DNA of 21,845 bases from positions 1 through 21,845 of IMG/VR virus record IMGVR_UViG_3300028548_005287; one strand, given 5' to 3'. This DNA is from a virus. The notes below the pieces were generated by a model. It did no database searches and was not told the origin of the DNA. It worked only from the letters and a program-made list of their open reading frames with translations. Shown piece after piece: positions 3,301-17,510 of the stretch. Both the position numbers and the translations under genes were made by a program. How positions within the stretch are numbered: position 1 is the first letter of the stretch; the number at the start of each line of letters is the position of its first letter.

Positions 3301-3795
3301 GGTGGGTTGGTAGCAGCTGGTATTGCAGCTGGTATTGTGTTTGCTCCTTTAGCAACACTACCTACATTAGCTGGTTTAGCAGTTATGAGGCAATTATTAG
3401 CTAATCCAAGGTTTGTTGGCATAATGTTAAAAACAGATAAAGGCTCAATTAAACAGGCTATTGAGATGGCCAGAAGAGCTGCTGGTATTGTTGGTGTTAG
3501 GTACGTTAATGGTCAAGCAGAGTTAATAGGATTTGAAACAAATAAAGCTTTAAACGAAGCTACTAATCAAGCTGAAGATAAAGGAATGATAGATACTGCA
3601 AAAGATTTTTTTAAGTCTACTACCGAGCAAGCAGGTCAAATTAGAAACGAAATACCTCAATCATTCCCAATATCTCAATCAAACATACCTGTTCCAGACG
3701 TACAACCAGTACAGATGCCCAACTTAAATCCTTTATCACCAGATAGAGTAGACTTTGATGAGCAGTTATTTGGCAGGCCTTCTAGAATAGGTTAA
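388..3795 (+). CDS. Large virion-type protein, possibly internal or ejected protein (1135 aa)
   Basis: This is an 1135-residue protein with no family I can name. Visible parts: a polar N-terminus (about 1-145); a Gly/Ala-rich hydrophobic stretch at about 152-175; a second Gly/Ala-rich stretch at about 190-250; a long charged, helix-rich middle; and a clear membrane-type segment at about 970-1000 followed by MRQLLANPRF. The tail is Pro/Gln-rich and ends in DEQLFGRPSRIG. Very long, helix-rich proteins with isolated hydrophobic segments near the late genes of small tailed phages are often internal virion or ejection proteins. That is my inference, not a domain match. The ATG at 388 lies 2 bases after the preceding stop and has no good Shine-Dalgarno sequence, so translation may be coupled. 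Its TAA stop overlaps the stop of the opposing nuclease gene inside one TTAA. Confidence 0.75.
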   Translation: MQRFKVNISPGVSQVVEAENSVEARQKVKAQIAKGAMSPFYDKLYFDYDTGVNVKGLRSSLGRAETDKEKDLVLKNLFESIKGAEEAEDQDAVLENKVGNDGFVRNTRGQIALTPSGLEELGLPIQQKKLADGSVINLNTVIDEKAWFTSGDFADFAGIAGPIAGALTFLSPQLKVIKGLRALFGGNKVMSNMFASGVGSAAGKAAEEEIFDTQQGFQLQDRDDLNSLYATEFFLGSVGQGIGEAVGGAFGLLFGRKAPTSDVRLIRQGNKGRIVTDVMKLDRDIGREATEKEIKRAIKDGKVGMLDYKFVPSQTTLKKQLPGKAQQIGEQVLGPARANEANNYLFGNLNHLLKAIDAHDASLNKYISDATKGSLDEQIQAARSKLDMEELNVSKVLNDFLKDLQEDSFNAGDLTRTPGTEEVGENIIKVLKSARSQVTRVLGKEYDNVDNQFYDLINVPANATKAQKDTAFAISRTIGLTQSRYLKDSLNVLEQFKASNSAWEVAGATDPGLPGGVIKQIENALEKMLAQAQKGTLSLTNVRNSYDSIKDMASSSMVPTQLRRQVLRILNKLDDRRHVELDEAGKNFIEGKGLGSTDSIFTTLEINSPEEFSRVLAETQKRLDIGDGFGIQPAEQRLITKAVGDLRDANKLSAKLLEPFDRIRINKTIERGGTGSYNADEVYINLVENGKPKDLKDLFQSLRTYDQYKRQMAAGGKGTATTAEQDLKAALRKRLFTDAGRMSTDTSGAEAVIDFTAFARHIQKFEGRHEGKLLELFSDAGGGRSTGKNVLDTINQLVKLKPSLKPADLKDLINSFTTSGKGLAASDSGISFIQGLTKLAKASEDKLIFTSNTAISELPLKGVDETVKAIFRPNAGSNIRILKEAVSDEVFKEVQQASMQRLLSKSIDFNYNGKGNITEVFKAGHLKSALTTYGDETLEAMFGKEVTLGLKDFQRYIDLSTVGELGRGGSAGGLVAAGIAAGIVFAPLATLPTLAGLAVMRQLLANPRFVGIMLKTDKGSIKQAIEMARRAAGIVGVRYVNGQAELIGFETNKALNEATNQAEDKGMIDTAKDFFKSTTEQAGQIRNEIPQSFPISQSNIPVPDVQPVQMPNLNPLSPDRVDFDEQLFGRPSRIG

Positions 3796-4253
3796 AACCC
3801 TAGCTCATTGCGATCCATTCCTAACGGTTTATCAGACAAACATTCCCATTTATCTAACGGTATGTGTATATAAGGCTCGTTGTCTTCATCATAAATAGGA
3901 TTGTCGCTTACATTCATTCTTACATCATAAACAAAGTCTTTCTCCCATTTGTGCATATAGATGCCGTCTGTCATAGCATAAACAATAATAAACGGCACTC
4001 CGGTTGCTAATGCAAAAGAAGATCCTTTCCGCAGCTTGTTTGTAGATATTATAAAAGTGTCGTATTTATCATGAGCAAAGGTGCGACATTTAACTTCGCA
4101 CCAATAGTTTTTTTCTTGCGACTCTATCCAATAATCTAGTGAATAACTTGTGGGTAACTTATGGCAACTAACTCCCCAAAGGCCCTCCAAAAATCCTGCT
4201 ACACGCTCTTCTCTTTTCTGGTCTTCTCTGCTTTCTAATGATGGTGTCTTCAT
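3792..4253 (-). CDS. Small PD-(D/E)XK-type nuclease
   Basis: This 153-residue protein has the layout of a PD-(D/E)XK endonuclease. An acidic residue in SLDYWI (Asp40) is followed by the strand motif YWCEVKCR (Glu53 and Lys55), which gives D-(n)-ExK. A hydrophobic strand, VPFIIVYAM, follows further on. Enzymes of this fold cut DNA; whether this one resolves junctions, degrades host DNA or repairs DNA cannot be told from sequence. I chose ATG 4253 rather than an in-frame TTG at 4265 because GAGG lies 6 bases upstream of the ATG, inside the end of the primase-helicase gene. It directly follows that gene, which suggests a role in DNA replication or processing. The fold call rests on the motif alone. 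Confidence 0.6.
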   Translation of the reverse strand: MKTPSLESREDQKREERVAGFLEGLWGVSCHKLPTSYSLDYWIESQEKNYWCEVKCRTFAHDKYDTFIISTNKLRKGSSFALATGVPFIIVYAMTDGIYMHKWEKDFVYDVRMNVSDNPIYDEDNEPYIHIPLDKWECLSDKPLGMDRNELGF

Positions 4254-4254
4254 A

Positions 4255-6375
4255 TCATTCCTCAAAGAAGTTAGGATCTACGGCAACAAACCTTTTGGTT
4301 GGTCTGCCTTTGCCCCCAACTTTAATTTCAATCTCCTGGATTTCACCAGCATTCTTTAATCGTTCTATAATCTCTTTGACTTCATAAGACTTCATACTTC
4401 TAAATAGTTCATGCCTATCTACTTCTCTTTTAGATATGCCTTCTCCATTTCTAGATCTAATAAAAGACAACACTTGTTTAATACGAGACTCTGTTGCAGA
4501 GCTGGCAACTTTGTCTCTGCATGACTCTATAAACATTAAATCATAGTATCTAATGTAATCTATAGACCACTTCATAATGTCTCCTGTAATCGTCTTAGCG
4601 TCTGCGTTAGAGGCTAACGTACATAACAAGGCTAACCTCATGGCTTTCTCTTTAGATCTACTGAGCAAAGGCTCTAAGTTATCTTTTTCTAATATGTCCT
4701 GTCTTTTAACAATCTCTCTGGCAAAGTCTTGCAACAACTCTTCTGACTGCTTATCAAAATTTAAAATAGTTTGATTCAAATCCATTTCTGAATTGTCTCT
4801 AGAGGTATCACTAAGACCACCCTTTAGCCTTCTAATGTAATTAACCCAGTTAACTATAGTAAGAGGAGGTTCTGTATATCGTCTTAGATCTCCAACTCTT
4901 CTAGGCTCTTTAGATTCAACAACTACAAAACGGTTAAGAAAACCATCTGCAATACGACCACCATTTAATGCTGAATAAAAATTCTTAGGTACAGACAAAC
5001 CAACTAATGTAATGGCTGGTTTATGTGTAACTCTATTCATCATCTGTTCTTTGTATTGTTCTTGTACTCCCATCAAAGAATAGTTATCTGGTCGCAAAGT
5101 CCCATGACAACGACCCCAAGCCTCCATAAGAGTCTGTATGCCGTCCTCTTTATTGGTATTACCAGCGTTACTAATTGCTTCAAGTCTTTTACCAAACTCA
5201 TCCATAATAGTAATTTGCGTAGGTCTTATCTTTAAAACAGAATGTACAGCACCACTTGAGGTATAACCGTCTCCTACTATTAACTTCTCGTGGTCCGAAG
5301 CATTAATAACAGCTTCAATAAATGTTTTGATGTTCTCTTTACCCTGACCAGATTTAGCAACGCCCATAAAATACATACTAGAAAAATTGTTCATGTTGGT
5401 TCTATACAAACGCCCACAAGTAACACTAGCCAAAGCTAATGCTCCAACAAGAGATAATTCTGGTTGAGGCACTTGCGCTATCTCCTCACAAAACTCAAAC
5501 ATGTTTTTAATTAAACCAGGTGGTGAGAATAGATCTGCTGGTGGACTAATGCTTTCTGTTGACTGTATAAATAATGGTGCTATTTGATTCTTTCTATCGT
5601 GCGTTCTTTTAACATTTTCTGCTACTGAGTCTATTTCCTGTTGAGGTAATGGAGGGTTGTTATTCTTATTCCAGTTCTGCAAAAAGACTTTAACAAATTC
5701 AAGGTTTACATTTTTAGAAATTAAATACCCAGCTATCCTAGCTGCTCCATCGTTCCTTGATCCTTCAAGCACTCCATCTAATGAGAAAGGAGCTGTTTGT
5801 TTGCTGCTTTCAATCTTAGGTATGCCTGTAATTTGTATGTACTCTTTCTCGGTAAAATCTGGTAGATCTGTATGATCGTCAATCTTCCAATCAGTAAACA
5901 TAACAGGCTTGTAAACAGTACCATTAGCATGACGGTTATATGGCGCAATAATTAAGCCACCAACTCCCCGTATGTCTATTAGTCTTTCTATAGGAGTATC
6001 GTTAGTCCTTCTTGTAGCGAAGGTGGTGTAGTTTTCTGGGTTGTTATAATAGTAATGCATGCCTTTACCAGTTATAACCTTAAAAGGACAAGCAGGTAAA
6101 TTTCTCTCTACCCAATCCATAGCCTCTGGCGAGTCTGCATCCACAACAACAAATTTGCCGCACACTAATGCTACAACAAGATTGTCCCTATCTTTAAACC
6201 AAGATTCAACAAGTTCTCTGGTAGGCCTAGTCTCCTTATACTGTTCCCAGCTTCCTAAGAATGATGGAGGTTTCTTGTTAGATCTCTGTAAAGGGACAAC
6301 ATTATAACCATCGTCAAAATAAGCCAAGGCAATATCTAAGGAAGAATCATCCTCATTAATATTGAGTTGAAACAC
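4255..6375 (-). CDS. Primase-polymerase / DUF3987-type helicase fusion (706 aa)
   Basis: The protein combines priming and DNA unwinding at the phage replication fork. Residues about 10-165 look like a bifunctional primase-polymerase domain (PF09250 type): VVDADSPEA gives the metal-binding Asp79/Asp81, GKGMHYY gives His107, and DIRGVGGLIIAP follows. Residues about 205-255 resemble the primase C-terminal linker domain. Residues about 285-490 resemble the DUF3987 ATPase: a P-loop-like SGQGKEN (342-348), with Glu instead of Ser/Thr after the Lys, and a Walker B-like ITIMDEFGK (388-396). The last about 75 residues look like a winged helix (KREVDRH, then EIIERLKNAGEI), probably for DNA binding. The start is GTG at 6375, one base after the regulator's TAG. 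It is the only start codon before the next upstream in-frame stop and has no clear Shine-Dalgarno, so translation is probably coupled. Confidence 0.85.
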   Translation of the reverse strand: MFQLNINEDDSSLDIALAYFDDGYNVVPLQRSNKKPPSFLGSWEQYKETRPTRELVESWFKDRDNLVVALVCGKFVVVDADSPEAMDWVERNLPACPFKVITGKGMHYYYNNPENYTTFATRRTNDTPIERLIDIRGVGGLIIAPYNRHANGTVYKPVMFTDWKIDDHTDLPDFTEKEYIQITGIPKIESSKQTAPFSLDGVLEGSRNDGAARIAGYLISKNVNLEFVKVFLQNWNKNNNPPLPQQEIDSVAENVKRTHDRKNQIAPLFIQSTESISPPADLFSPPGLIKNMFEFCEEIAQVPQPELSLVGALALASVTCGRLYRTNMNNFSSMYFMGVAKSGQGKENIKTFIEAVINASDHEKLIVGDGYTSSGAVHSVLKIRPTQITIMDEFGKRLEAISNAGNTNKEDGIQTLMEAWGRCHGTLRPDNYSLMGVQEQYKEQMMNRVTHKPAITLVGLSVPKNFYSALNGGRIADGFLNRFVVVESKEPRRVGDLRRYTEPPLTIVNWVNYIRRLKGGLSDTSRDNSEMDLNQTILNFDKQSEELLQDFAREIVKRQDILEKDNLEPLLSRSKEKAMRLALLCTLASNADAKTITGDIMKWSIDYIRYYDLMFIESCRDKVASSATESRIKQVLSFIRSRNGEGISKREVDRHELFRSMKSYEVKEIIERLKNAGEIQEIEIKVGGKGRPTKRFVAVDPNFFEE

Positions 6376-6376
6376 T

Positions 6377-6718
6377 CTAGTTCTGTTCTGTCAATATTTC
6401 AGATATAGAACCATATATAGATTCAAAATCTAATCTCCCCTCTGTTGCCTGTATTATTTGTTTAGCTTGAGCTATAGACGGTTGCCTATAACCATACCTC
6501 CAGGATTTACATGATGCTTCTGAGCATTTAAAGTCTTCCGAAGCTTTCTTATTTCCTAAGAACGCGATATATCCCGATAGGGTATAATCATCTACCTTTC
6601 TATCTTTGTGTTTTGGTTGTACGCCCATAGTGCTTAACTCCTTAAGTTTTTTTGTTGCTATTGATCTGGATCTAAAGTAGTAATTAGCCACCCAGGTCAT
6701 GTCATTTAATTTACCCAT
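6377..6718 (-). CDS. Cro/YdaS-like DNA-binding regulator
   Basis: A 113-residue protein with a likely helix-turn-helix at about 50-95: SGYIAFLG, then CSEASCKSWRYGYRQPS with Trp73, Gly76 and Pro80, and AKQIIQATEG. The pattern W-x-x-G-x-R-x-P-S followed by an A-x-x-I-x-x-x-T-x-G helix is typical of small phage Cro-like proteins. These bind operators as dimers and repress transcription. The ATG at 6718 has a good ribosome site (AGGAG). It is the first gene of a leftward operon with the primase-helicase and nuclease, and faces the recombination operon across a 93-base gap with two overlapping promoters. It probably regulates one or both of them; this is inferred from position. Confidence 0.65.
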   Translation of the reverse strand: MGKLNDMTWVANYYFRSRSIATKKLKELSTMGVQPKHKDRKVDDYTLSGYIAFLGNKKASEDFKCSEASCKSWRYGYRQPSIAQAKQIIQATEGRLDFESIYGSISEILTEQN

Positions 6719-6740
6719 ATACTTCTCCTAAATAATATGA

Positions 6741-6770
6741 TTTACACATTGTAGTTTCTTCATGTATAAT
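6741..6770 (+). promoter_or_regulatory. Promoter for the Sak4-like/DUF669 operon
   Basis: TTTACA (6741-6746) and TATAAT (6765-6770) are separated by 18 bases, close to the sigma-70 consensus. The expected transcript start near 6777 leaves room for the AGGAGG ribosome site just before ATG 6812. An inverted repeat TACA-CAT-TGTA (6743-6753) overlaps the -35 box and is a candidate operator half-site pair. Confidence 0.65.
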
Positions 6771-6776
6771 AATCAA
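6748..6776 (-). promoter_or_regulatory. Promoter for the regulator/primase-helicase operon
   Basis: Read leftward, TTGATT (6776-6771) and TACAAT (6753-6748) are 17 bases apart. The expected start is near 6741, upstream of the regulator's AGGAG site and ATG at 6718. The -35 and -10 boxes interlock with those of the rightward promoter, so the two sites share the same 36 bases. Confidence 0.55.
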
Positions 6777-6811
6777 GTTCATTTCAAATAAACCGTAGGA
6801 GGGTACAAAAT

Positions 6812-7528
6812 ATGAGCTTGAAAGATAAAATAAAAACACCAGACAAACTTGTCAATAAGCAAGGAGCAAAACTTCTTGTGTACGGCCAAGCCGGAGCTGG
6901 GAAAACTTATGCAACACAAACTATGCCAGGCAACGTCTTGGTTATAAGTGCTGAAGCTGGGTTGCTTTCTATTAAAGATGCGCCCAACGTATCTGCTATT
7001 GAAGTAAGTAATTATGACGATTTAAGAGAGGTTTATTCTGCTCTAAAATCTGGCGAATTAGTCTACGATAGCGTGTGTTTAGACTCTGTATCAGAGATCT
7101 CTGAGATCTTATTGGTGCATGAAAAGGGTAGAAACAAAGACGGGAGAATGGCTTATCAGAATGTAGCTGAAGCAGTCACCAGTCTAATGAGATCATTTAG
7201 GGATCTAGATATGCATGTGTTATTTCTTTGCAAAGAAGGCAAAGATAATAATGATGGCGTATTTTTCTTTGGTCCTAAAATGGCAAGTAAACCTCTGGGA
7301 GATTCGATAACGTATTTCTTTGATGAGGTTTTAGCACTTCGTATTATTGACGATCAAGATGATGATGGTAATGCGATAGCTGCAAGGTGGTTACAAACGA
7401 GAATAGGTCAAGGCTACACAGCCAAAGATCGTAGCGGTAAGCTAGAAGCGTTTGAGAAACCTGATTTAACTGCTCTAATTGCAAAATTAGGGTTTTCTAT
7501 GAATGTTGAAAATAAGGAGAGTAAATAA
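6812..7528 (+). CDS. Sak4-like RecA-family ATPase (AAA_24), recombination protein
   Basis: The 238-residue protein has a RecA-fold ATPase layout. Walker A is GQAGAGKT at 25-32. The phrase NVLVISAEAGLLSI follows at 41-54. The Walker B strand ends VCLDSVSE at 88-95, and VLFLCKEGK is a later strand near residue 135. This matches phage Sak4-type single-strand annealing or strand-exchange proteins (AAA_24, PF13479), which pair homologous DNA during phage recombination and repair. The ATG follows a strong AGGAGG site. The stop overlaps the DUF669 gene by one base (TAATG), and Sak4 genes are commonly next to such single-strand DNA binding proteins, which supports the call. Confidence 0.8.
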   Translation: MSLKDKIKTPDKLVNKQGAKLLVYGQAGAGKTYATQTMPGNVLVISAEAGLLSIKDAPNVSAIEVSNYDDLREVYSALKSGELVYDSVCLDSVSEISEILLVHEKGRNKDGRMAYQNVAEAVTSLMRSFRDLDMHVLFLCKEGKDNNDGVFFFGPKMASKPLGDSITYFFDEVLALRIIDDQDDDGNAIAARWLQTRIGQGYTAKDRSGKLEAFEKPDLTALIAKLGFSMNVENKESK

Positions 7529-7986
7529 TGTCAGATTTTAATGATGTTGATTTTTTTGAAAACGTGGAGCAAATGGAATCGAAAGGTCCAGAGGTTGCAC
7601 CAACTGGTGATTACGAAGCAAAGATTATTGCTGCTGAAAAGTACAAATCTAAAAGCGGTAATTGGACGCAAAAATATACTTTTCAGATTGATGGCGGTAA
7701 ATACCGAGATCATTCTGAGTGGTATAACTTATGGTCAACCAACGAAACAACTAAAAAGATATCATCCGAGATGCATAGTCGTTTAGCTTTGGCTGTTGGA
7801 TTTAAGAAGCTACCAGAGTTTGGTAAAGACTTTATAGGTAAAACTATTAAAGTAAACATGAAGCAATTTGAAGATGTTTGGACAGATGGCGAAGGCCAAC
7901 AAAGAACATCTCTCAAGTCTAAGATCATGAAACTTGAGAAGTCAACGGTTATGTCTCCCCCCCAAGAGGCAAAACCACCCTTTTAA
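7528..7986 (+). CDS. DUF669-type single-strand DNA binding protein
   Basis: The 152-residue protein starts with an acidic segment (FNDVDFFENVEQ), then APTGDYEAKIIAAEKYKSKS. A beta-rich core follows (WTQKYTFQIDGG; KTIKVNMKQFEDVW). It ends KPPF. This is the pattern of the phage DUF669 family, regarded as OB-like single-strand DNA binding proteins that work with Sak4 recombinases. The ATG shares its A with the upstream stop and has AAGGAG within the end of the ATPase gene, so the two are translationally coupled. A terminator follows 13 bases after the stop, closing a two-gene operon. Confidence 0.7.
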   Translation: MSDFNDVDFFENVEQMESKGPEVAPTGDYEAKIIAAEKYKSKSGNWTQKYTFQIDGGKYRDHSEWYNLWSTNETTKKISSEMHSRLALAVGFKKLPEFGKDFIGKTIKVNMKQFEDVWTDGEGQQRTSLKSKIMKLEKSTVMSPPQEAKPPF

Positions 7987-7998
7987 GTAAGGGTAAAC

Positions 7999-8025
7999 AA
8001 AAGGGGCGTCAAGCCCCTTTTTTTT
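7999..8025. terminator. Bidirectional intrinsic terminator
   Basis: An AAAAGGGGC stem (7999-8007), GTCAA loop and GCCCCTTTT stem, followed by a T run to 8025, ends the rightward recombination operon. Read leftward the same hairpin is followed by TTTTGTTT, so it can also end the leftward operon. The stop codon of the leftward 59-aa gene lies inside the loop. Confidence 0.9.
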
Positions 8026-8188
8026 GCATACAAATACGCCAAGCAGATTGTTTTATTTGATTTGGGTAGTTGGTGTACAAAGAATCTCTGCACTTATTAA
8101 ATTGTTCTTTTAGATCTATTGATTGTTTTTCTGGGATGGTTATAAGGCTGCATGTGTTTAAAAGTAAAACAATACAGAGAATGCGCAT
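8009..8188 (-). CDS. Small secreted or membrane-anchored protein (59 aa)
   Basis: The protein begins MRILCIVLLLNTCSLI, a short basic start and hydrophobic core that looks like a signal peptide or membrane anchor. A polar remainder follows with two further Cys (NKCRDS and RICMQKK). A lipoprotein-type cut before the Cys in LLNTC is possible but the lipobox is weak. The ATG shares its A with the TAA of the resolvase-like gene (TAATG), so expression is coupled. The last codons and the stop are encoded by the terminator hairpin. No function is recognised. A role at the host envelope during infection would be a guess. Confidence 0.55.
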   Translation of the reverse strand: MRILCIVLLLNTCSLITIPEKQSIDLKEQFNKCRDSLYTNYPNQIKQSAWRICMQKKGA

Positions 8189-8520
8189 TATTTTTTATGT
8201 AATGAAATAAAATGCTCTGCGTCCACCAGGACCAAAGGCTTGCTTCTGTTTCTTTTAATAACAACCAGAGGTTCGTAATCTTTGCAATTGGATTCAGCTT
8301 GCTCATACGCTTTCCATACATTAACTGCTTCTTGATTCTTGCATTCAATTGAGTAAGGAAATTTATTCCGGGATTGTTTACCCATAATAATATCTTCGCC
8401 TTGGCTTCCCATAGGCCTTGACTCTAGATCTTCTTTATCTAAGCATAAGATCTCAATCATTACATTAGCAAACCATTGCTGGAGTTTGCGACCTTTCGCT
8501 TTGGCACTTGATGTTTTCAT
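8188..8520 (-). CDS. Holliday-junction-resolvase-like / PD-(D/E)XK endonuclease
   Basis: A 110-residue nuclease-like protein. The N-terminus has AKGRKLQQWF. SRPMGSQGEDIIMG (34-47) holds the acidic pair Glu42/Asp43. FPYSIECKNQE (54-64) gives the ExK-type motif Glu59-Cys-Lys61. WKAYEQAESN and KPLVLVDAEHF follow. The combination PMGSQGEDI, SIECK and QAE-N is typical of small phage endonucleases annotated as Holliday junction resolvases, which cut branched DNA before packaging or during recombination. The ATG at 8520 overlaps the upstream stop (TAATG). It belongs to the same leftward operon as the exonuclease. Confidence 0.75.
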   Translation of the reverse strand: MKTSSAKAKGRKLQQWFANVMIEILCLDKEDLESRPMGSQGEDIIMGKQSRNKFPYSIECKNQEAVNVWKAYEQAESNCKDYEPLVVIKRNRSKPLVLVDAEHFISLHKK

Positions 8521-8693
8521 TATTCAGAAACAAAAACCATAACTTCGTCTTCGCTTATTTTAATCATACCTATTACCTCTTTGCCTTTAAACTTTCTCTC
8601 TGCGCCAGCAAATGATTTTGCTTTTACAATAGGAGTGTCTACTTGATAATCTTCGTCTTGTCCTTCTAGTATAATTGACTTTAATATGTTCAT
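8520..8693 (-). CDS. Small hypothetical protein (57 aa)
   Basis: The frame encodes MNILKSIILEGQDEDYQV, a lysine-rich middle (AGAERKFKGKEV) and a C-terminus with alternating hydrophobic residues (IGMIKISEDEVMVFVSE). It looks like a compact beta-type domain. No family recognised. It starts 2 bases after the DUF3310 stop and its TAA shares a base with the ATG of the resolvase-like gene, which fits the tightly coupled operon and supports a real gene. Confidence 0.6.
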   Translation of the reverse strand: MNILKSIILEGQDEDYQVDTPIVKAKSFAGAERKFKGKEVIGMIKISEDEVMVFVSE

Positions 8694-8695
8694 AG

Positions 8696-8923
8696 TTAAA
8701 CATTTTCCATTTGTTCTATTGCCCAGTTAATATACACAACGGCCTTCTGAAGATCCTGGATGTTTGCATCTTTGTGATTGGCTCTCCAAATATATTTAAA
8801 AGCATTACCCTTGCAATATCCTTTAAATTCTTCTGGAGTCAAAGCTGCCTTAATTGCATCAATACATTCAATACCACCTTGAGTGTAATGAGGTGGTTGG
8901 TGAACAGCTTTATCTTTGCTCAT
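8696..8923 (-). CDS. DUF3310 protein
   Basis: The 75-residue protein matches the DUF3310 pattern: HYTQGGIECIDAI (12-24), then FKGYCKGNAFKYIWRANHK (33-51), then DLQKAVVYINWAI. The family is widespread in phages and sometimes labelled nucleotide-kinase-like, but its function is not established. It occupies nearly the usual full length for the domain. AGGAG lies 8 bases before the ATG, and the ATG overlaps the previous stop (ATGA). Confidence 0.85.
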   Translation of the reverse strand: MSKDKAVHQPPHYTQGGIECIDAIKAALTPEEFKGYCKGNAFKYIWRANHKDANIQDLQKAVVYINWAIEQMENV

Positions 8924-9156
8924 TTATTATTCTCCTTTAATTTTTTAACAAGTTTATAAAGAACTCCAGATGTAAGTTCTTTGTTGTTTATAAATCTGTC
9001 TAATGTAGCGTGATATACATTATTTTCTTTTGCTAAAAGCCTTATAAAAGTATCTTTCTTGTATTGTTTTCCGTAGTTTTTTTGTAAATAGCCGATTAGC
9101 TCTAACCTGAATTCTTCTAGCTCTTGATCAGTATAAGTTTCTTTAGGCATTTTCAT
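8920..9156 (-). CDS. Small helix-turn-helix-like protein (78 aa)
   Basis: A charged, helical protein. The middle (KKDTFIRLLAKENNVYHATLDRF) and the end (TSGVLYKLVKKLKENNK) resemble a lambda-repressor-like helix-turn-helix in which NNVYHATLDRF would be the recognition helix. DNA binding is a moderate inference. ATG 9156 overlaps the preceding TGA (ATGA). An internal ATG at the third codon is an alternative start. A GGAG-like site lies in the end of the upstream gene. It could regulate its own operon. Confidence 0.55.
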   Translation of the reverse strand: MKMPKETYTDQELEEFRLELIGYLQKNYGKQYKKDTFIRLLAKENNVYHATLDRFINNKELTSGVLYKLVKKLKENNK

Positions 9157-9398
9157 TTCCTATCTCCTAAACATTTATCAATAGCATCATCAAGTATAGG
9201 TTTAACAGATTCATACGCTTGTTTATAATTTTTATCTTCACTCATACTGTATGTAATATGATTCTTAGCAAGTTGAAATATTCTTGATAGCTCCTCACAC
9301 AATTTAGTTTCTAAATATTTTTTATTATGTTCAATTAAATTGTTATCAACATCAATCAATACTTGCTCTGCAAAGTTTACTAATTTAGCTTTATTCAC
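9153..9398 (-). CDS. Hypothetical helical protein (81 aa)
   Basis: I place the start at GTG 9398, giving MNKAKLVNFAEQVL. GGAG stands 7 bases upstream, and the GTG overlaps the end of the zinc-ribbon gene (GTGAATAA), like its operon neighbours. The longer frame from GTG 9485 would add a spurious hydrophobic N-terminus that overlaps most of the zinc-ribbon gene and has no ribosome site. The product is helical and charged, with Cys in TKLCEEL and DKCLGDRK. No family recognised. Confidence 0.6.
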   Translation of the reverse strand: MNKAKLVNFAEQVLIDVDNNLIEHNKKYLETKLCEELSRIFQLAKNHITYSMSEDKNYKQAYESVKPILDDAIDKCLGDRK

Positions 9399-9543
9399 TT
9401 TGATTCTCCAGTTCCTTACATTTAGGACACTCTGTATCAGAAGTAACAACCATAAGATTACTGAATATAGTTGGTATTGGTTCACTTATATTTACAGGAT
9501 TCTCAATATCAGATCCACATCCATCACATATATATCTACTCAT
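9391..9543 (-). CDS. Zinc-ribbon small protein (50 aa)
   Basis: The protein has two Cys pairs, YICDGCGSD near the start and TECPKCKEL near the end, about 30 residues apart. This CxxC...CxxC layout is a zinc ribbon. The ATG at 9543 has an excellent AGGAGG site in the tail of the exonuclease gene and overlaps its TAG by 8 bases (ATGAGTAG). Zinc ribbons bind nucleic acid or protein; the partner is unknown, but the position directly after the exonuclease fits a DNA-related or regulatory role. Confidence 0.7.
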   Translation of the reverse strand: MSRYICDGCGSDIENPVNISEPIPTIFSNLMVVTSDTECPKCKELENQSE

Positions 9544-10417
9544 TCCAGCCTCCTGTTAGATCTACATCAACAATACTTGGTGAGTTGTATATGGTTGCTT
9601 CCTTGCCATTTAATACAGCGTTGTATTCGTCTAGCATGCTTTCCATTCTTAACCACCCAGCATCCATATCAGCATGGCTCATCTTAAAGACTTTACTTGC
9701 ATACGGTTTTTTCTTTTCTTGCGCTACAAACACAAAATCAGTAACACTAAACCCAGCCTTTTCAAAGCCTCGTTTATACCAGGCAGCTTGTAGGTCGTAT
9801 TGATACTTTCTAATAGAAGATGTAAAGCCTCTAACAGAGCAATCAATCGTAGTTTTATAGTCTACTAATACAATAGAGTTTTTATCGTGAGGTATAGCAA
9901 TAGGATGTCTAAGAACATCTGACTTAACCTTTAATAATAGATCCTTCTCCCACCAAAAGATTGCTCTTTCGTACGGAGAGTTAAAGATAAGGCTAGGAAA
10001 CTCATCTTCACTTGCAGACAAGTACTTAGCGCCTTCTGGTATTAATGCTTCTTTCATGCCGTATAAAGCATCTTTATCTTTTGCAGTAATAACCGTTAGT
10101 CCTCGGTCCTCATACTCTTTCTTAAGCTCTTTATTGGCATTGGTATACGGAGATCCAGATATACAAACAACATCATTAACAAAGGCCTCTTCTCCCTCAA
10201 CAATAAGTGAGTGAGCAGCAGTTCCAAACTTCATAGCTGGAGTTGTCTCTTGGACTTCCTCAAACGCATGAAGCTGACTCTGACCAAACCGTCTAATGTT
10301 TGATGATGAGATGCCTGGTACTGAATGATAGAAGTTATGTTCCATATCTGGGAAGTAGACAGCATCCCCAAGAATCACATGTTCTTCGTTCTCTAAGATT
10401 TCTGGCATTATTTTCAT
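9536..10417 (-). CDS. RecE/DUF3799-type PD-(D/E)XK exonuclease (293 aa)
   Basis: The 293-residue protein follows the phage exonuclease pattern of the DUF3799 / Exo VIII C-terminal group. FYHSVPGISSSNIRRF (29-44) is followed by AMKFGTAAHSLIVEG (61-75). LLKVKSDVL (161-169) holds Asp167. IVLVDYKTT (182-190) holds Asp186 and Lys188, the D-x-K catalytic strand, and KYQYDLQAAWY (204-214) is the downstream Q/Y motif. Such enzymes resect double-strand ends to give single strands for the annealing protein. The Sak4-like and DUF669 proteins encoded on the other strand are the expected partners. The ATG overlaps the preceding stop (ATGA) with AAAGGA upstream. It may alternatively serve as a Cas4-like nuclease; the exonuclease call is favoured. 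Confidence 0.8.
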   Translation of the reverse strand: MKIMPEILENEEHVILGDAVYFPDMEHNFYHSVPGISSSNIRRFGQSQLHAFEEVQETTPAMKFGTAAHSLIVEGEEAFVNDVVCISGSPYTNANKELKKEYEDRGLTVITAKDKDALYGMKEALIPEGAKYLSASEDEFPSLIFNSPYERAIFWWEKDLLLKVKSDVLRHPIAIPHDKNSIVLVDYKTTIDCSVRGFTSSIRKYQYDLQAAWYKRGFEKAGFSVTDFVFVAQEKKKPYASKVFKMSHADMDAGWLRMESMLDEYNAVLNGKEATIYNSPSIVDVDLTGGWNE

Positions 10418-14793: not shown

Positions 14794-14963
14794 ATAATTC
14801 TTATCACTCCTTAATACTACAGGAAGTAAACTATATAGCAAGTAATTTAGACTACTATTTGTAATAAGTTTATATAGTGTTATTTACGCTCATGCAGGGA
14901 ATTCGAAAGTTAATCGCATTAGCCCTGTCTCTTTGTCTCTCTCCCACAAAAAAGCATGAGAAA

Positions 14964-15126
14964 TCGGGTCGGGTCTTTAATCGGGTCGGGAGGTCGGATT
15001 CGGGAAATCGGGGGTTGGATATAACACACAAATAATAACACAACACAAGGAGGCTGGGGCTTCCAAAACAGATCCAATTTTCTGCTGGAGGGATAGAAAT
15101 GTTGTCTGCAAATGAATTAAAATAGT
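14964..15126 (+). repeat. Cassette block A: TCGGG repeats, ACACA tract, CTGG element
   Basis: Several TCGGG units lie at 14964-15014, including six G runs of three or more. AACACACAAATAATAACACA follows around 15022-15041, then AGGCTGGGGCTTCC at 15051-15064. The order is the same as in blocks B to E. It ends in AAAATAGTT before the promoter-like sequence. Confidence 0.65.
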
Positions 15127-15156
15127 TATACCAAATGTACCCACTTGTGTTACACT
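15127..15156 (+). promoter_or_regulatory. Diverged copy of the repeated promoter element
   Basis: After AAAATAGT, TATACC (15127-15132) and TACACT (15151-15156) are 18 bases apart. The block aligns with the TTGACA promoters at 15776, 16130 and 16993, including ATGTACCC versus ATGTAACC. The -35 box is weak by consensus. Confidence 0.4.
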
Positions 15157-15186
15157 TATGGTTCATTAACTTAATAGGAGAAAATA

Positions 15187-15594
15187 ATGAAAACGAATGC
15201 AACAGAAAGAAGAGCGATAGCACAAAAGCACATCAGGACTTTACAAGGTCAGGTGAAAATTGCTGATGCCAAGTTCCAAAATACCAAAGAGTGTAAAGCC
15301 ATTCTTAAAAAGAAAGCCGAGATTGACCATTACCACGAACAGATTAGGGAGGTGAATAGGTCTATCCAACAGGATATTGAAGACCTCAACGAAGCTAAAG
15401 GTTGGGGAGAGCATATAAAGGTAACTGAAGACCGACACTACTCTAACGGCATTTATGAAGAGCGACTTAGGATAGATATTCCTAGTGAGTACACTCTTAG
15501 AGAAGAGATTGAGCAAGAGATATGTATTGCTCAGATTGATTCTCTTGACTTGAACTCCTTGTTTAAAAAACTTAGCGAGGTATTTAAAGTATGA
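15187..15594 (+). CDS. Hypothetical coiled-coil protein (135 aa)
   Basis: The N-terminal two thirds are a charged helix, probably coiled coil (ERRAIAQKHIRTLQGQVKIA; ILKKKAEIDHYHEQIREVN; IQQDIEDLNEAKGWGEH). A short strand region follows (YEERLRIDIPSEYTL) and then an acidic helical end (EEIEQEICIAQIDSLDLNSL). The ATG follows AATAGGAGAAAATA, a good ribosome site nearly identical to that of the gene at 16189. A strong terminator follows 24 bases after the stop, so this is a one-gene unit. No family recognised. Confidence 0.7.
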   Translation: MKTNATERRAIAQKHIRTLQGQVKIADAKFQNTKECKAILKKKAEIDHYHEQIREVNRSIQQDIEDLNEAKGWGEHIKVTEDRHYSNGIYEERLRIDIPSEYTLREEIEQEICIAQIDSLDLNSLFKKLSEVFKV

Positions 15595-15617
15595 ATTAAA
15601 TAACGCACTCCAAACTT

Positions 15618-15643
15618 ACCCCGATTTATTCGGGGTTTTTTTT
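15618..15643 (+). terminator. Intrinsic terminator of the 15187 gene
   Basis: CCCCGA (15619-15624) pairs with TCGGGG (15630-15635) around a 5-base loop, followed by eight T. TCGGG of block B starts 2 bases after the T run. Confidence 0.9.
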
Positions 15644-15644
15644 G

Positions 15645-15775
15645 TCGGGAAGTCGGAACAGTCTTTAGTTTTTTCAAGGCACTAATACACACAAACAAAC
15701 AAACACATACACACATGAGGCTGGGATCTCTGGCCCTGGGAAAAAGCCAGGACAGTTCCGGTAATAAAATAGTTG
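15645..15775 (+). repeat. Cassette block B: TCGGG, ACACAC tract, CTGG hairpin
   Basis: TCGGGAAGTCGG (15645-15656) is followed by a CA-rich tract (15685-15715) and GAGGCTGGGATCTCTGG (15717-15733). The hairpin CCTGG-gaaaaag-CCAGG (15735-15751) comes next, and the block ends with AAAATAG. It has the same order of parts as the other four blocks. Confidence 0.7.
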
Positions 15776-15805
15776 TTGACAAGAAGTAACCAGTCGTTTT
15801 ATAAT
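15776..15805 (+). promoter_or_regulatory. Near-consensus promoter of the candidate small RNA
   Basis: TTGACA (15776-15781) and TATAAT (15800-15805) are both perfect, 18 bases apart, and preceded by AAAATAGTTG. The expected start is at about 15812. GGAGG at 15807-15811 would then lie outside the transcript. Confidence 0.85.
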
Positions 15806-15811
15806 GGAGGT

Positions 15812-15971
15812 AAGATGCATGACCAACTTCGGTTGCGACTCTCAAAAAAAACGGGCATTCACGCCCCCGCCTAAACAGGTCAAAGAGATTCGCCCAACTT
15901 GGATTCACCACTTAGGAAAGGAAAGCAAACCTATCCAAAAAACTCAGCCCCTCGAAAGAGGGGTTTTTTTT
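15812..15971 (+). ncRNA. Candidate structured small RNA (about 160 nt)
   Basis: A perfect-consensus promoter and a strong terminator define a transcript of about 160 nt. Possible frames from ATG 15819 (MTNFGCDSQKK) and ATG 15899 do not stop before the terminator: they run through its hairpin and T run. No complete protein is therefore encoded, and the GGAGG motif lies before the predicted start. Structure is visible: CAAC-TTCG-GTTG (15824-15835) forms a C(UUCG)G tetraloop hairpin, GGGC-ATTCAC-GCCC (15853-15866) a second, and the terminator has a GAAA loop. The role is unknown; an antisense regulator or decoy is possible. A small protein from a longer transcript is the alternative. Confidence 0.55.
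15948..15971 (+). terminator. Intrinsic terminator of the candidate small RNA
   Basis: CCCCTC (15948-15953) and GAGGGG (15958-15963) around a GAAA tetraloop, followed by eight T. Confidence 0.95.
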
Positions 15972-15984
15972 GCCAGCAGGATGG

Positions 15985-16129
15985 TCGGGATCTCATGTCG
16001 GGTTTCCATCTCAGTTCTTTGAATTTGCAAGGCAATAGGGAACACACAAGTAAACACAAGAGATCTGGGCCAGCAGCTCCGGCCAGGACAAAAGTTCTAG
16101 ATCCCCTGGATAGATCTATTGCGTAATGG
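15985..16129 (+). repeat. Cassette block C: TCGGG, ACACAC tract, CTGG element
   Basis: TCGGGATCTCATGTCGGG (15985-16002) is followed by AACACACAAGTAAACACAAG (16041-16060) and GATCTGGGCCAG (16062-16073). CCGGCCAGG, then CCCCTGG and two AGATCT sites follow. It has the same order as block B with different bases between the parts. Confidence 0.65.
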
Positions 16130-16158
16130 TTGACAAAATGTAACCAATCATCTATATT
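16130..16158 (+). promoter_or_regulatory. Promoter for the 16189-16851 unit
   Basis: TTGACA (16130-16135) and TATATT (16153-16158) are 17 bases apart. The stretch after the -35 box, AAATGTAACCA, matches the other cassette promoters. The expected start near 16165 leaves room for AATAGGAGAAGAAG before the ATG. Confidence 0.75.
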
Positions 16159-16188
16159 GGACCTTTATTAACTTAATAGGAGAAGAAG

Positions 16189-16434
16189 ATGGAAGTATTA
16201 GAATATTGTTACGTTGCCAAGTGTTTGGCTATGAAATGCCCAAGAGTCTGGGGCCAAACTAGAGAAGACTGCGAAGCAGCAATGGAGGCGTGGACGGCCA
16301 AGCAGGTCAGGTTCAAACCTCTAGGCCTGTATAAGTATCCGCTGATCCATAAAGGCGAGAACAATTATGAAGTTGACTGGGGCTATGAGAACGAAGATGG
16401 TTCATACAACGATAACGGCCAGGACGTATTGTGA
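16189..16434 (+). CDS. Hypothetical Cys-containing protein (81 aa)
   Basis: The protein starts MEVLEYCYVAKCLAMKCPRV with four Cys in the first 28 residues (CYVAKC, MKCP, EDCE). Then come EAWTAKQVRFKPLGLY and an acidic Asn/Gly-rich end. Metal binding by the Cys cluster is possible. AGGAG precedes the ATG. The coding sequence is visibly richer in G and C than genes elsewhere in the window, as is the next gene, suggesting separate origin. Its stop overlaps the next start (GTGA). No family recognised. Confidence 0.65.
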   Translation: MEVLEYCYVAKCLAMKCPRVWGQTREDCEAAMEAWTAKQVRFKPLGLYKYPLIHKGENNYEVDWGYENEDGSYNDNGQDVL

Positions 16435-16793
16435 AAAGGTTCCAAACGGATTGCGAGAAGAAGCTGCGCAGAATGATTGATGGGATGGCAGAAGATGTGA
16501 TCCAGGGCCGCATGCGTTTCTTTCCTGATGACGAAAGCGTTGTTGATGATATGCAAGGCGAAACGGTTTACGAGGTCTATAACACCAAGTATATAATCGG
16601 GGATGACGGGACCTATCACGATGTGATGATCATGCTGGCGGGAGGCGGTCCTACCATTTGGCTGGACACCTGGGCCGCAGAGATCCGCGGGAGCTGGGGT
16701 AGTGACAAGTACACCAAGCACATCTATAACTATGAATATATTAATGATTACTTTGAAGAGGAGTACTCATGCTGTGGGATTAAACATGCTTGA
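16431..16793 (+). CDS. Conserved phage-type protein with GGP-IWLDT motif (120 aa)
   Basis: A helical, basic N-terminus (FQTDCEKKLRRMIDGMAED) is followed by YEVYNTKYIIGDDGTY and the strand-rich block MIMLAGGGPTIWLDT...RGSWG (66-90). Blocks of the form GGP-x-IWLDT with a following aromatic-Gly pair occur in phage and plasmid hypothetical proteins, as I recall, with no known function. The start is GTG 16431, overlapping the previous TGA, with AGGA 7 bases upstream. It is co-transcribed with the 16189 gene and shares its higher GC content. Confidence 0.65.
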   Translation: MKRFQTDCEKKLRRMIDGMAEDVIQGRMRFFPDDESVVDDMQGETVYEVYNTKYIIGDDGTYHDVMIMLAGGGPTIWLDTWAAEIRGSWGSDKYTKHIYNYEYINDYFEEEYSCCGIKHA

Positions 16794-16851
16794 GCTGACT
16801 GTTTTAATTTACTTGCTAGCCATCCTATTATCTGGTCGGGGTCGGGGATGA
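16786..16851 (+). CDS. Tiny transmembrane peptide (21 aa)
   Basis: The frame encodes MLELTVLIYLLAILLSG followed by RGRG: one membrane helix and a basic tail. It overlaps the end of the previous gene by 8 bases, and GGGA lies about 7 bases before the ATG. The basic tail is encoded by the TCGGGG repeats that open block D. It resembles the peptides at 12434 and 12805. Translation is uncertain. Confidence 0.4.
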   Translation: MLELTVLIYLLAILLSGRGRG

Positions 16852-16992
16852 GCATTCATTCGGGTCGGCACGCTAGGTTAGCAGGTAACCCTAGCACATA
16901 CACACGAGCCTCCAGCAGCCAGGGATCTCTGACGAAACAAGTTCAGCTGACAGCTGGCAAAAACAAGCTGTAAAAATAAGTGAAAATAGTTG
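16836..16992 (+). repeat. Cassette block D: TCGGG, ACACAC tract, hairpins
   Basis: TCGGGGTCGGGG (16836-16847) and TCGGGTCGG (16860-16868) are followed by an imperfect hairpin (GCTAGGTTA at 16872-16880, TAACCCTAGC at 16886-16895). Then come CACATACACACGAG, CCAGGGATCTCTG and the repeat ACAGCT/AGCTGT (16950-16955, 16966-16971). It ends in GAAAATAGTTG. No T run follows the first hairpin, so no clear terminator closes the 16189 unit. Confidence 0.65.
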
Positions 16993-17022
16993 TTGACAGA
17001 ATGTAAACTATAATGATTAAAT
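16993..17022 (+). promoter_or_regulatory. Cassette promoter for the 17059 gene
   Basis: TTGACA (16993-16998) in the shared context AAAATAGTTGTTGACAGAAT. A perfect TATAAT (17009-17014) is only 10 bases away, too close. The usable -10 is probably TGA-TTAAAT (17014-17022), 18 bases away and of extended -10 type. Confidence 0.5.
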
Positions 17023-17058
17023 TACCTTAATTAAATAAATGACTTATAGGAGGTCAAG

Positions 17059-17259
17059 ATGAAAATAGAAGTACTAATGTATAACGAGGACGGACAAGTG
17101 GTTGGCAAGGCTATTGAGACAGCTTGTAACAGCTTAATAGTGAATGGTGTACATGTTATCTCTAATGGTGGCGTAAACGCTGAGATGAGAGACTTGTTAG
17201 GTGCAACAACCACGCAGGATATTGGCATGACACTAGTGCCACCACTAGAACTTAACTAA
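17059..17259 (+). CDS. Hypothetical protein (66 aa)
   Basis: The protein has a beta-rich N-terminal part (MKIEVLMYNEDGQVVGKAIE), then NSLIVNGVHVISNGGV and a C-terminus with TTTQDIGMTLVPPLELN. It has the look of a small folded domain. The ribosome site AGGAGG is ideal. It forms a one-gene unit between a cassette promoter and a terminator. No family recognised. Confidence 0.65.
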   Translation: MKIEVLMYNEDGQVVGKAIETACNSLIVNGVHVISNGGVNAEMRDLLGATTTQDIGMTLVPPLELN

Positions 17260-17277
17260 AAAAACTTAGGAGGATTT

Positions 17278-17303
17278 AAGGGAGCTAACGCTCCCTTTTT
17301 TTT
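17278..17303 (+). terminator. Intrinsic terminator of the 17059 gene
   Basis: AAGGGAGC (17278-17285), loop TAAC, GCTCCCTT (17290-17297), then T to 17303. Confidence 0.95.
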
Positions 17304-17329
17304 GGGACTCTATTTGGTGGAGAAACGGA

Positions 17330-17412
17330 GTCGGTAATCGGGCTTGGCATACCCCCCACCCCCAAAAATTGGGTAGACCAGTAGATACACACACTAGGAC
17401 AGGATCGCTCTC
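17330..17412 (+). repeat. Cassette block E: short copy
   Basis: GTCGGTAATCGGG (17330-17342) is followed by a C-rich stretch, ATACACACAC (17385-17394) and AGGACAGGATCGCTC (17396-17410). The order matches blocks A to D, but no TTGACA element follows. Confidence 0.5.
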
Positions 17413-17460
17413 AAACAATATTCATTTTTTTAACAAAGCTGTTCTTTTCTTAATATCTGG

Positions 17461-17469
17461 TGGTACAAT
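17461..17469 (+). promoter_or_regulatory. Possible extended -10 promoter for the virion genes
   Basis: TGG-TACAAT (17461-17469) is an extended -10 motif without a clear -35 box. The start would lie near 17476, ahead of AAGGA and ATG 17511. Confidence 0.35.
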
Positions 17470-17510
17470 CTGGCAATACATAAAAAATTTTTACAAAAAA
17501 GGAATATATT

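Follow-up and report, generated by a model that had tools for sequence, protein, structure and literature searches.

Turnover of small genes between conserved intergenic blocks in the terminase locus of HTVC023P-related phages

Five intergenic blocks, each with TCGGG repeats and an ACACA tract in a fixed order, punctuate a series of short units in the window analysed here (the whole stretch of DNA, a 21.8 kb virus contig with a GC content of 36.5%). We consider that these are probably self-contained units standing behind conserved control and boundary blocks, with exchange between related phages through equivalent boundaries. A preliminary description made from the sequence had reported five repeated blocks, and all five are present at about the same coordinates.

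Results

The array consists of the following features.

14964..15186, + strand: block 1, with six TCGGG (14964-15012), an ACACA tract (15024-15047) and a GC-rich part
Within 14964..15186, + strand: 3' part of block 1, with a degenerate promoter (GTTATAC...) and the RBS of the coiled-coil gene
15187..15594, + strand: slot 1 gene, 135 aa, coiled-coil-like; in 24/24 relatives, at identities down to about 27%
15618..15636, + strand: slot 1 intrinsic terminator, the stem of which includes TCGGG
15645..15809, + strand: block 2, with TCGGG, an ACACA tract, a hairpin-prone part and the promoter GTTGACA (15775) / TATAAT (15800-15805)
15813..15914, + strand: slot 2 structured small RNA (nhmmer, covariation); the unit runs from about 15812 to its terminator
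15946..15965, + strand: slot 2 intrinsic terminator
15985..16188, + strand: block 3, with two TCGGG, an ACACA tract and the promoter GTTGACAAAATGTAACCA (16129) / TATATT
16189..16434, + strand: slot 3 gene, 81 aa; other genes stand there in relatives
16431..16793, + strand: slot 3 gene, 120 aa (model pLDDT 83), often kept
16786..16851, + strand: tiny ORF, 21 aa, with a hydrophobic stretch; its final codons form the initial TCGGGs of block 4
16836..17058, + strand: block 4, with a TCGGG cluster, ACACA, a hairpin-prone part and the promoter GTTGACA (16992), with unusual -10 spacing
17059..17259, + strand: slot 4 gene, 66 aa, in 24/24 relatives
17278..17297, + strand: slot 4 intrinsic terminator
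17330..17510, + strand: block 5, with TCGGG, ACACACA and then a different promoter-like sequence, TGGTGGTACAAT (about 17457-17468)

Block 1 lies in a divergent region and is doubled (1a and 1b) in most relatives. The promoter that had been described as following the first four blocks holds for blocks 2 and 3, but that of block 1 is degenerate and block 4 has no TATAAT at normal spacing. Nor do promoters stop at block 4: a promoter-like sequence of a different type, called by eye, comes after the TCGGG and ACACACA of block 5 and ahead of the structural operon, and relatives show the same layout. The three intrinsic terminators close three units, as described, with none at the block 4 boundary, and the slot 3 operon does have a higher GC content (47.4% versus 36.5% for the whole window). 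ORFs similar to the hydrophobic 21-aa one are conserved in relatives L106, L114 and L116, from both clades. G-quadruplex formation as a common block function was rejected, with enough G-runs, judged by eye, in block 1 only.

TCGGG is the most over-represented 5-mer of the array region (14870-17500), with 15 copies on the + strand versus 1.7 expected. ACACA (15 versus 4.0 expected) and GTTGACA (3 versus 0.17) are likewise enriched, each of the three counts being reached in 0/500 dinucleotide shuffles, and the TCGGG and ACACAC parts of the blocks thus withstand the comparison with shuffled sequence that had been proposed as a check. The CTGG/GATC-rich hairpin described as a further shared part does not: against the same kind of shuffles GATC (12 versus 8.3 expected, 64/500 shuffles) and CCAG are not enriched in this region, CTGG is weakly enriched, and the hairpin is the block part most variable in sequence. 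In the array region TCGGG occurs on the + strand only, one terminator stem excepted; the copy at 15630 is part of a terminator stem and that at 16597 falls within a gene. The array was found once per genome in relatives of 33-49 kb. The whole window has no near match in annotated phage records, and a motif scan of 84,980 bacterial and archaeal genomes gave matches limited to two Rhizobacter contigs, which are probably due to chance.

The search for relatives used the two flanking genes, the ATPase and the TCGGG/ACACA motif. Across 63 non-redundant related arrays TCGGG lies 979 times on the + strand versus 80 times on the - strand. ACACA follows within 90 nt after 237 of 238 TCGGG clusters (two or more TCGGG) in these arrays versus 25% of random positions, figures that come from relatives that are not independent and from arrays gathered partly by the same motif order. 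Equivalent blocks of ten genomes are about 69% identical, whereas different blocks reach about 17% by the same measure and, within one genome, have just short motifs in common. The blocks are therefore position-specific orthologues, which agrees with the earlier view that they are alike in order but not identical, and maintained rather than recently duplicated. The number of slots varies among relatives. Unlike blocks share motifs and no alignable ancestry, so on sequence identity no exchange between them is expected. The different blocks of a single genome do not resemble each other enough to recombine homologously, and the partner in an exchange would have to be the matching block in another phage.

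The contents of the slots differ in how they are kept. Slot 1 holds the coiled-coil-like family and the last slot a 58-71-aa family in 24/24 relatives, and the coiled-coil-like and 66-aa genes of the preliminary description are thus real and conserved. The middle slots of the 24 relatives hold many unrelated families, including a 209-aa DNA methyltransferase (PHROG 757, E 1e-55), a 157-161-aa DUF3846 protein, a 47+53-aa zinc-ribbon pair, families of 80, 51, 88 and 104 aa, a structured RNA and others. The 81-aa slot 3 gene is replaced in relatives by 157-aa DUF3846, 209-aa DNA methyltransferase or 90-aa genes. In L094 versus L096, blocks 2 to 4 are roughly 70-98% identical and the genes of slots 2 and 3 are unrelated. 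A 209-aa DNA methyltransferase-like gene (L096 7290-7919) is a middle cassette in six relatives.

Equivalent blocks flanking different genes in different relatives had been named beforehand as the test of the array, and this is what was seen; turnover of genes between conserved blocks is well supported by these comparisons. The proposed landing zone for morons describes the middle slots, in which units turn over. However, all 24 genomes retain the first and last genes; the array is therefore not a free landing zone, and the moron label does not fit its outer units. Pfam and PHROGs searches with the array proteins of the window gave nothing informative, a fold search with the 120-aa protein returned mostly uncharacterised viral proteins, none naming a function, and the structure model of the 66-aa protein is too poor for fold search.

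The candidate small RNA of slot 2 turned out to be a real conserved RNA. In both clades, slots of this kind hold homologues (nhmmer E 1e-15 to 1e-27). A fold with a closing stem and two hairpins accommodates ten distinct sequences, with 94% of cells paired and two-sided changes at five pairs. The covariation score is 0.227, compared with 0.084 for shuffles (0/500) and no more than 0.078 for slid controls, a comparison tilted against the slid controls because the structure came from this very alignment. A tRNA identity was rejected for want of a tRNA match, and a 67-aa ORF over the RNA is probably spurious and runs through the terminator. There is no Rfam match at gathering score, and by sequence comparison the RNA is a new, previously undescribed covarying family, likely a small regulatory RNA.

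The spacer motif GTTGACA-N3-TGTAWCCA is fixed across the array promoters. TGTA lies exactly three bases 3' of GTTGACA in 49 of 57 non-redundant promoters, with TGTAWCC in 37/57 and A at the next position in 54/57. Together GTTGACA and TGTAWCC make up an imperfect dyad (GGWTACA-N3-TGTAWCC) that overlaps the -35 and is probably an operator. Candidate phage regulators are a 113-aa gene at 6377-6718 and a 78-aa gene at 8920-9156. Strong matches to the spacer motif are confined to the array; outside it the matches are weaker, few in number and apparently due to chance. A generic promoter scan was uninformative (five sites versus 6.5 in shuffles), its 12/12 and 11/12 matches being two GTTGACA sites.

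Two comparisons show recent replacements. L114 and L116, from different metagenomes, have near-identical arrays that differ in the slot 1 unit (RBS through terminator) and, as one further small difference, in a promoter. Between the window and L121 the left flank is 99.5% identical up to the start codon and first codons, the coiled-coil gene is a different allele (36% amino-acid identity), and identity resumes in the terminator stem just 5' of the block 2 TCGGG (98%). Both clean swaps are in slot 1, on metagenomic contigs, and involve homologous alleles, not unrelated genes; they support, as read from the contigs, whole-unit exchange at unit boundaries. Breakpoints over all HSP pairs, however, are not enriched in blocks (61 versus 62 expected, 75 HSP junctions), so recombination at blocks is not established as a general rule, and certain replacements are limited to the hairpin part or the promoter part of a block. 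The earlier suggestion of exchange through shared flanks is supported by two unit swaps that end at the start codon or RBS and the terminator, but not by the overall breakpoint count.

The negative breakpoint test would be expected if the blocks were regulatory elements only (activator or repressor sites), with turnover by other routes and no part in exchange. Blocks kept by position at moderate identity and a fixed promoter motif that looks like an operator are also in line with such a role. We nevertheless consider it unlikely, given that the two recent replacements are bounded by the RBS or start codon, where identity stops, and by the terminator or first TCGGG, where it returns, and that non-homologous genes stand between conserved blocks.

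The array region lies between the small and large terminase genes (terS and terL) both in the clade and in cultured HTVC023P-like phages. A 49.5 kb relative has 58-64% identity to the HTVC023P-type in the terminase (TerL) and about 66% in the capsid, and by such sequence comparison the clade is placed beside the HTVC023P-type, as a marine clade. The HTVC023P-type phages compared were the pelagiphages HTVC023P and HTVC027P, phage 023Pt_psg01 and DSL-LC04, which has a gammaproteobacterial host. GroES/Cpn10 is present in 3/4 records of the clade. The HTVC023P-type core genome includes a DNA polymerase (PMC9599517), which in the annotated records is of family A; DNA_pol_A was not found in four records of 35-50 kb, which are fragments. 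A Prim-Pol module stands in place of the HTVC023P-type DNA polymerase A module, and the replication and recombination genes of the window (3792-10417) encode a Prim-Pol/DUF3987 protein, a Sak4-like AAA_24 ATPase, DUF669 and a DUF3799 exonuclease.

The terS-terL interval of cultured HTVC023P-like phages also holds small units with repeats of their own, namely oriented GCTTG in HTVC027P (L153 15921-17168; 25 versus 0.66 expected) and oriented GCTCG in 023Pt_psg01 (L155 15366-17855; 14 versus 0.36 expected). The interval of DSL-LC04 has a weaker 5-mer and that of HTVC023P no such oriented 5-mer. For one cassette family (F4) the sole match in 50,697 phage records is in HTVC027P, directly before terL. 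HTVC027P gp39 (L153 19456-19686), directly before terL, is a homologue of the 80-aa cassette gene of L096 and L117. RNA-seq of HTVC027P gave gp30, gp33 and gp34 of the equivalent interval their own time courses and expression classes (PMC12753301), which is independent, if indirect, support for separately controlled units. Another contig (L145 5116-6574) carries relatives of the HTVC023P and DSL-LC04 terS-terL genes plus the left flank gene of the array, and is possibly a link between the lineages.

Short oriented direct repeats between the terminase genes, with other oriented 5-mers there in two cultured phages, could also form a pac/cos-like site for the small terminase or replication initiator iterons, with the genes merely among them. 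This is improbable, given that nearly every cluster is followed by a CA tract and, as a rule, the promoter of a separate unit, that the five or six copies extend over 3 kb and that the cumulative GC skew shows no origin-like turn at the array. It is a long shot, too, that the accessory locus before terL in HTVC023P-like phages uses a lineage-specific oriented 5-mer (TCGGG in the array, GCTTG in HTVC027P, GCTCG in 023Pt_psg01), read by a phage protein in a Chi-like or terminase-like manner, as a compatibility code between lineages that decides which units are exchangeable. Short motifs on metagenomic contigs might suggest chance, low-complexity sequence or an assembly artefact, but this is hardly credible: the shuffles refute it for the motifs, and the blocks are conserved across many independently assembled contigs.

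Discussion

We favour self-contained units with exchangeable boundaries, and the array could then work as follows. Each unit would have its own host-type sigma-70 promoter with an operator-like spacer motif and usually its own terminator. Ahead of the promoter, and past the terminator of the preceding unit, lies a conserved module of oriented TCGGG repeats followed by a CA tract. This module is most likely a cis-control and insulating element bound by a phage or host protein, which would allow separate activation of each small gene or RNA, whatever its neighbours do. With every boundary conserved at its position in all relatives, co-infecting relatives could exchange the unit between equivalent boundaries; they would do so by homologous recombination, possibly with a part for the Sak4-like ATPase and the exonuclease, leaving the rest undisturbed.

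The locus is a fixed address with a searchable motif, where genes change between near-identical genomes. Takeover or counter-defence genes could be gathered there and recombination tested at defined boundaries, and the locus also yields a new covarying RNA family.

No description of the array was found in the open-access literature, and several known systems resemble it in part. In the part of PMC4351075 that deals with them, the stoperators of cluster A mycobacteriophages are, like TCGGG, asymmetric sites oriented with transcription, but they are longer, genome-wide and act in termination and silencing. The 17-bp dyad repeats of cluster O are repeated, many of them intergenic, and recombination has inserted or removed genes there; unlike the array they are genome-wide palindromes, about one third lie inside genes, and they have no promoter-linked order (PMC4351075). 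The haloarchaeal virus HGTV-1 has a promoter (TATA-box) and an inverted repeat before many ORFs, proposed for shuffling, although it is an archaeal virus with other sequence (PMC3950731). Cluster K mycobacteriophages carry the SAS/ESAS, short repeats that precede some of the non-structural genes and persist from one subcluster to another in front of different gene families (PMC3203893). SAS, however, is a 13-bp repeat, GGGATAGGAGCCC, at translation starts, whereas the TCGGG repeats stand about 110-130 nt before the promoter, and the array does not belong to this class.

The closest known kind is the T4-type PeSLs (Arbiol 2010; Comeau 2014), which, as summarised in PMC4503421 and PMC3950731, are many promoter/terminator composite copies between small genes, linked to gene shuffling. 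In the array, promoter and terminator recur at unit boundaries, separated by the TCGGG/CA modules and not at every boundary, and the flanking genes differ between close relatives. The TCGGG and CA modules are an addition to the PeSLs as summarised there, and the five or six copies are position-specific, in one 3 kb locus of a different phage group, terminase and capsid pointing to HTVC023P-like phages and not to a T4-like myovirus. Given the other phage group, the other architecture and the single locus, the array is not a PeSL member, but by analogy it would work alike.
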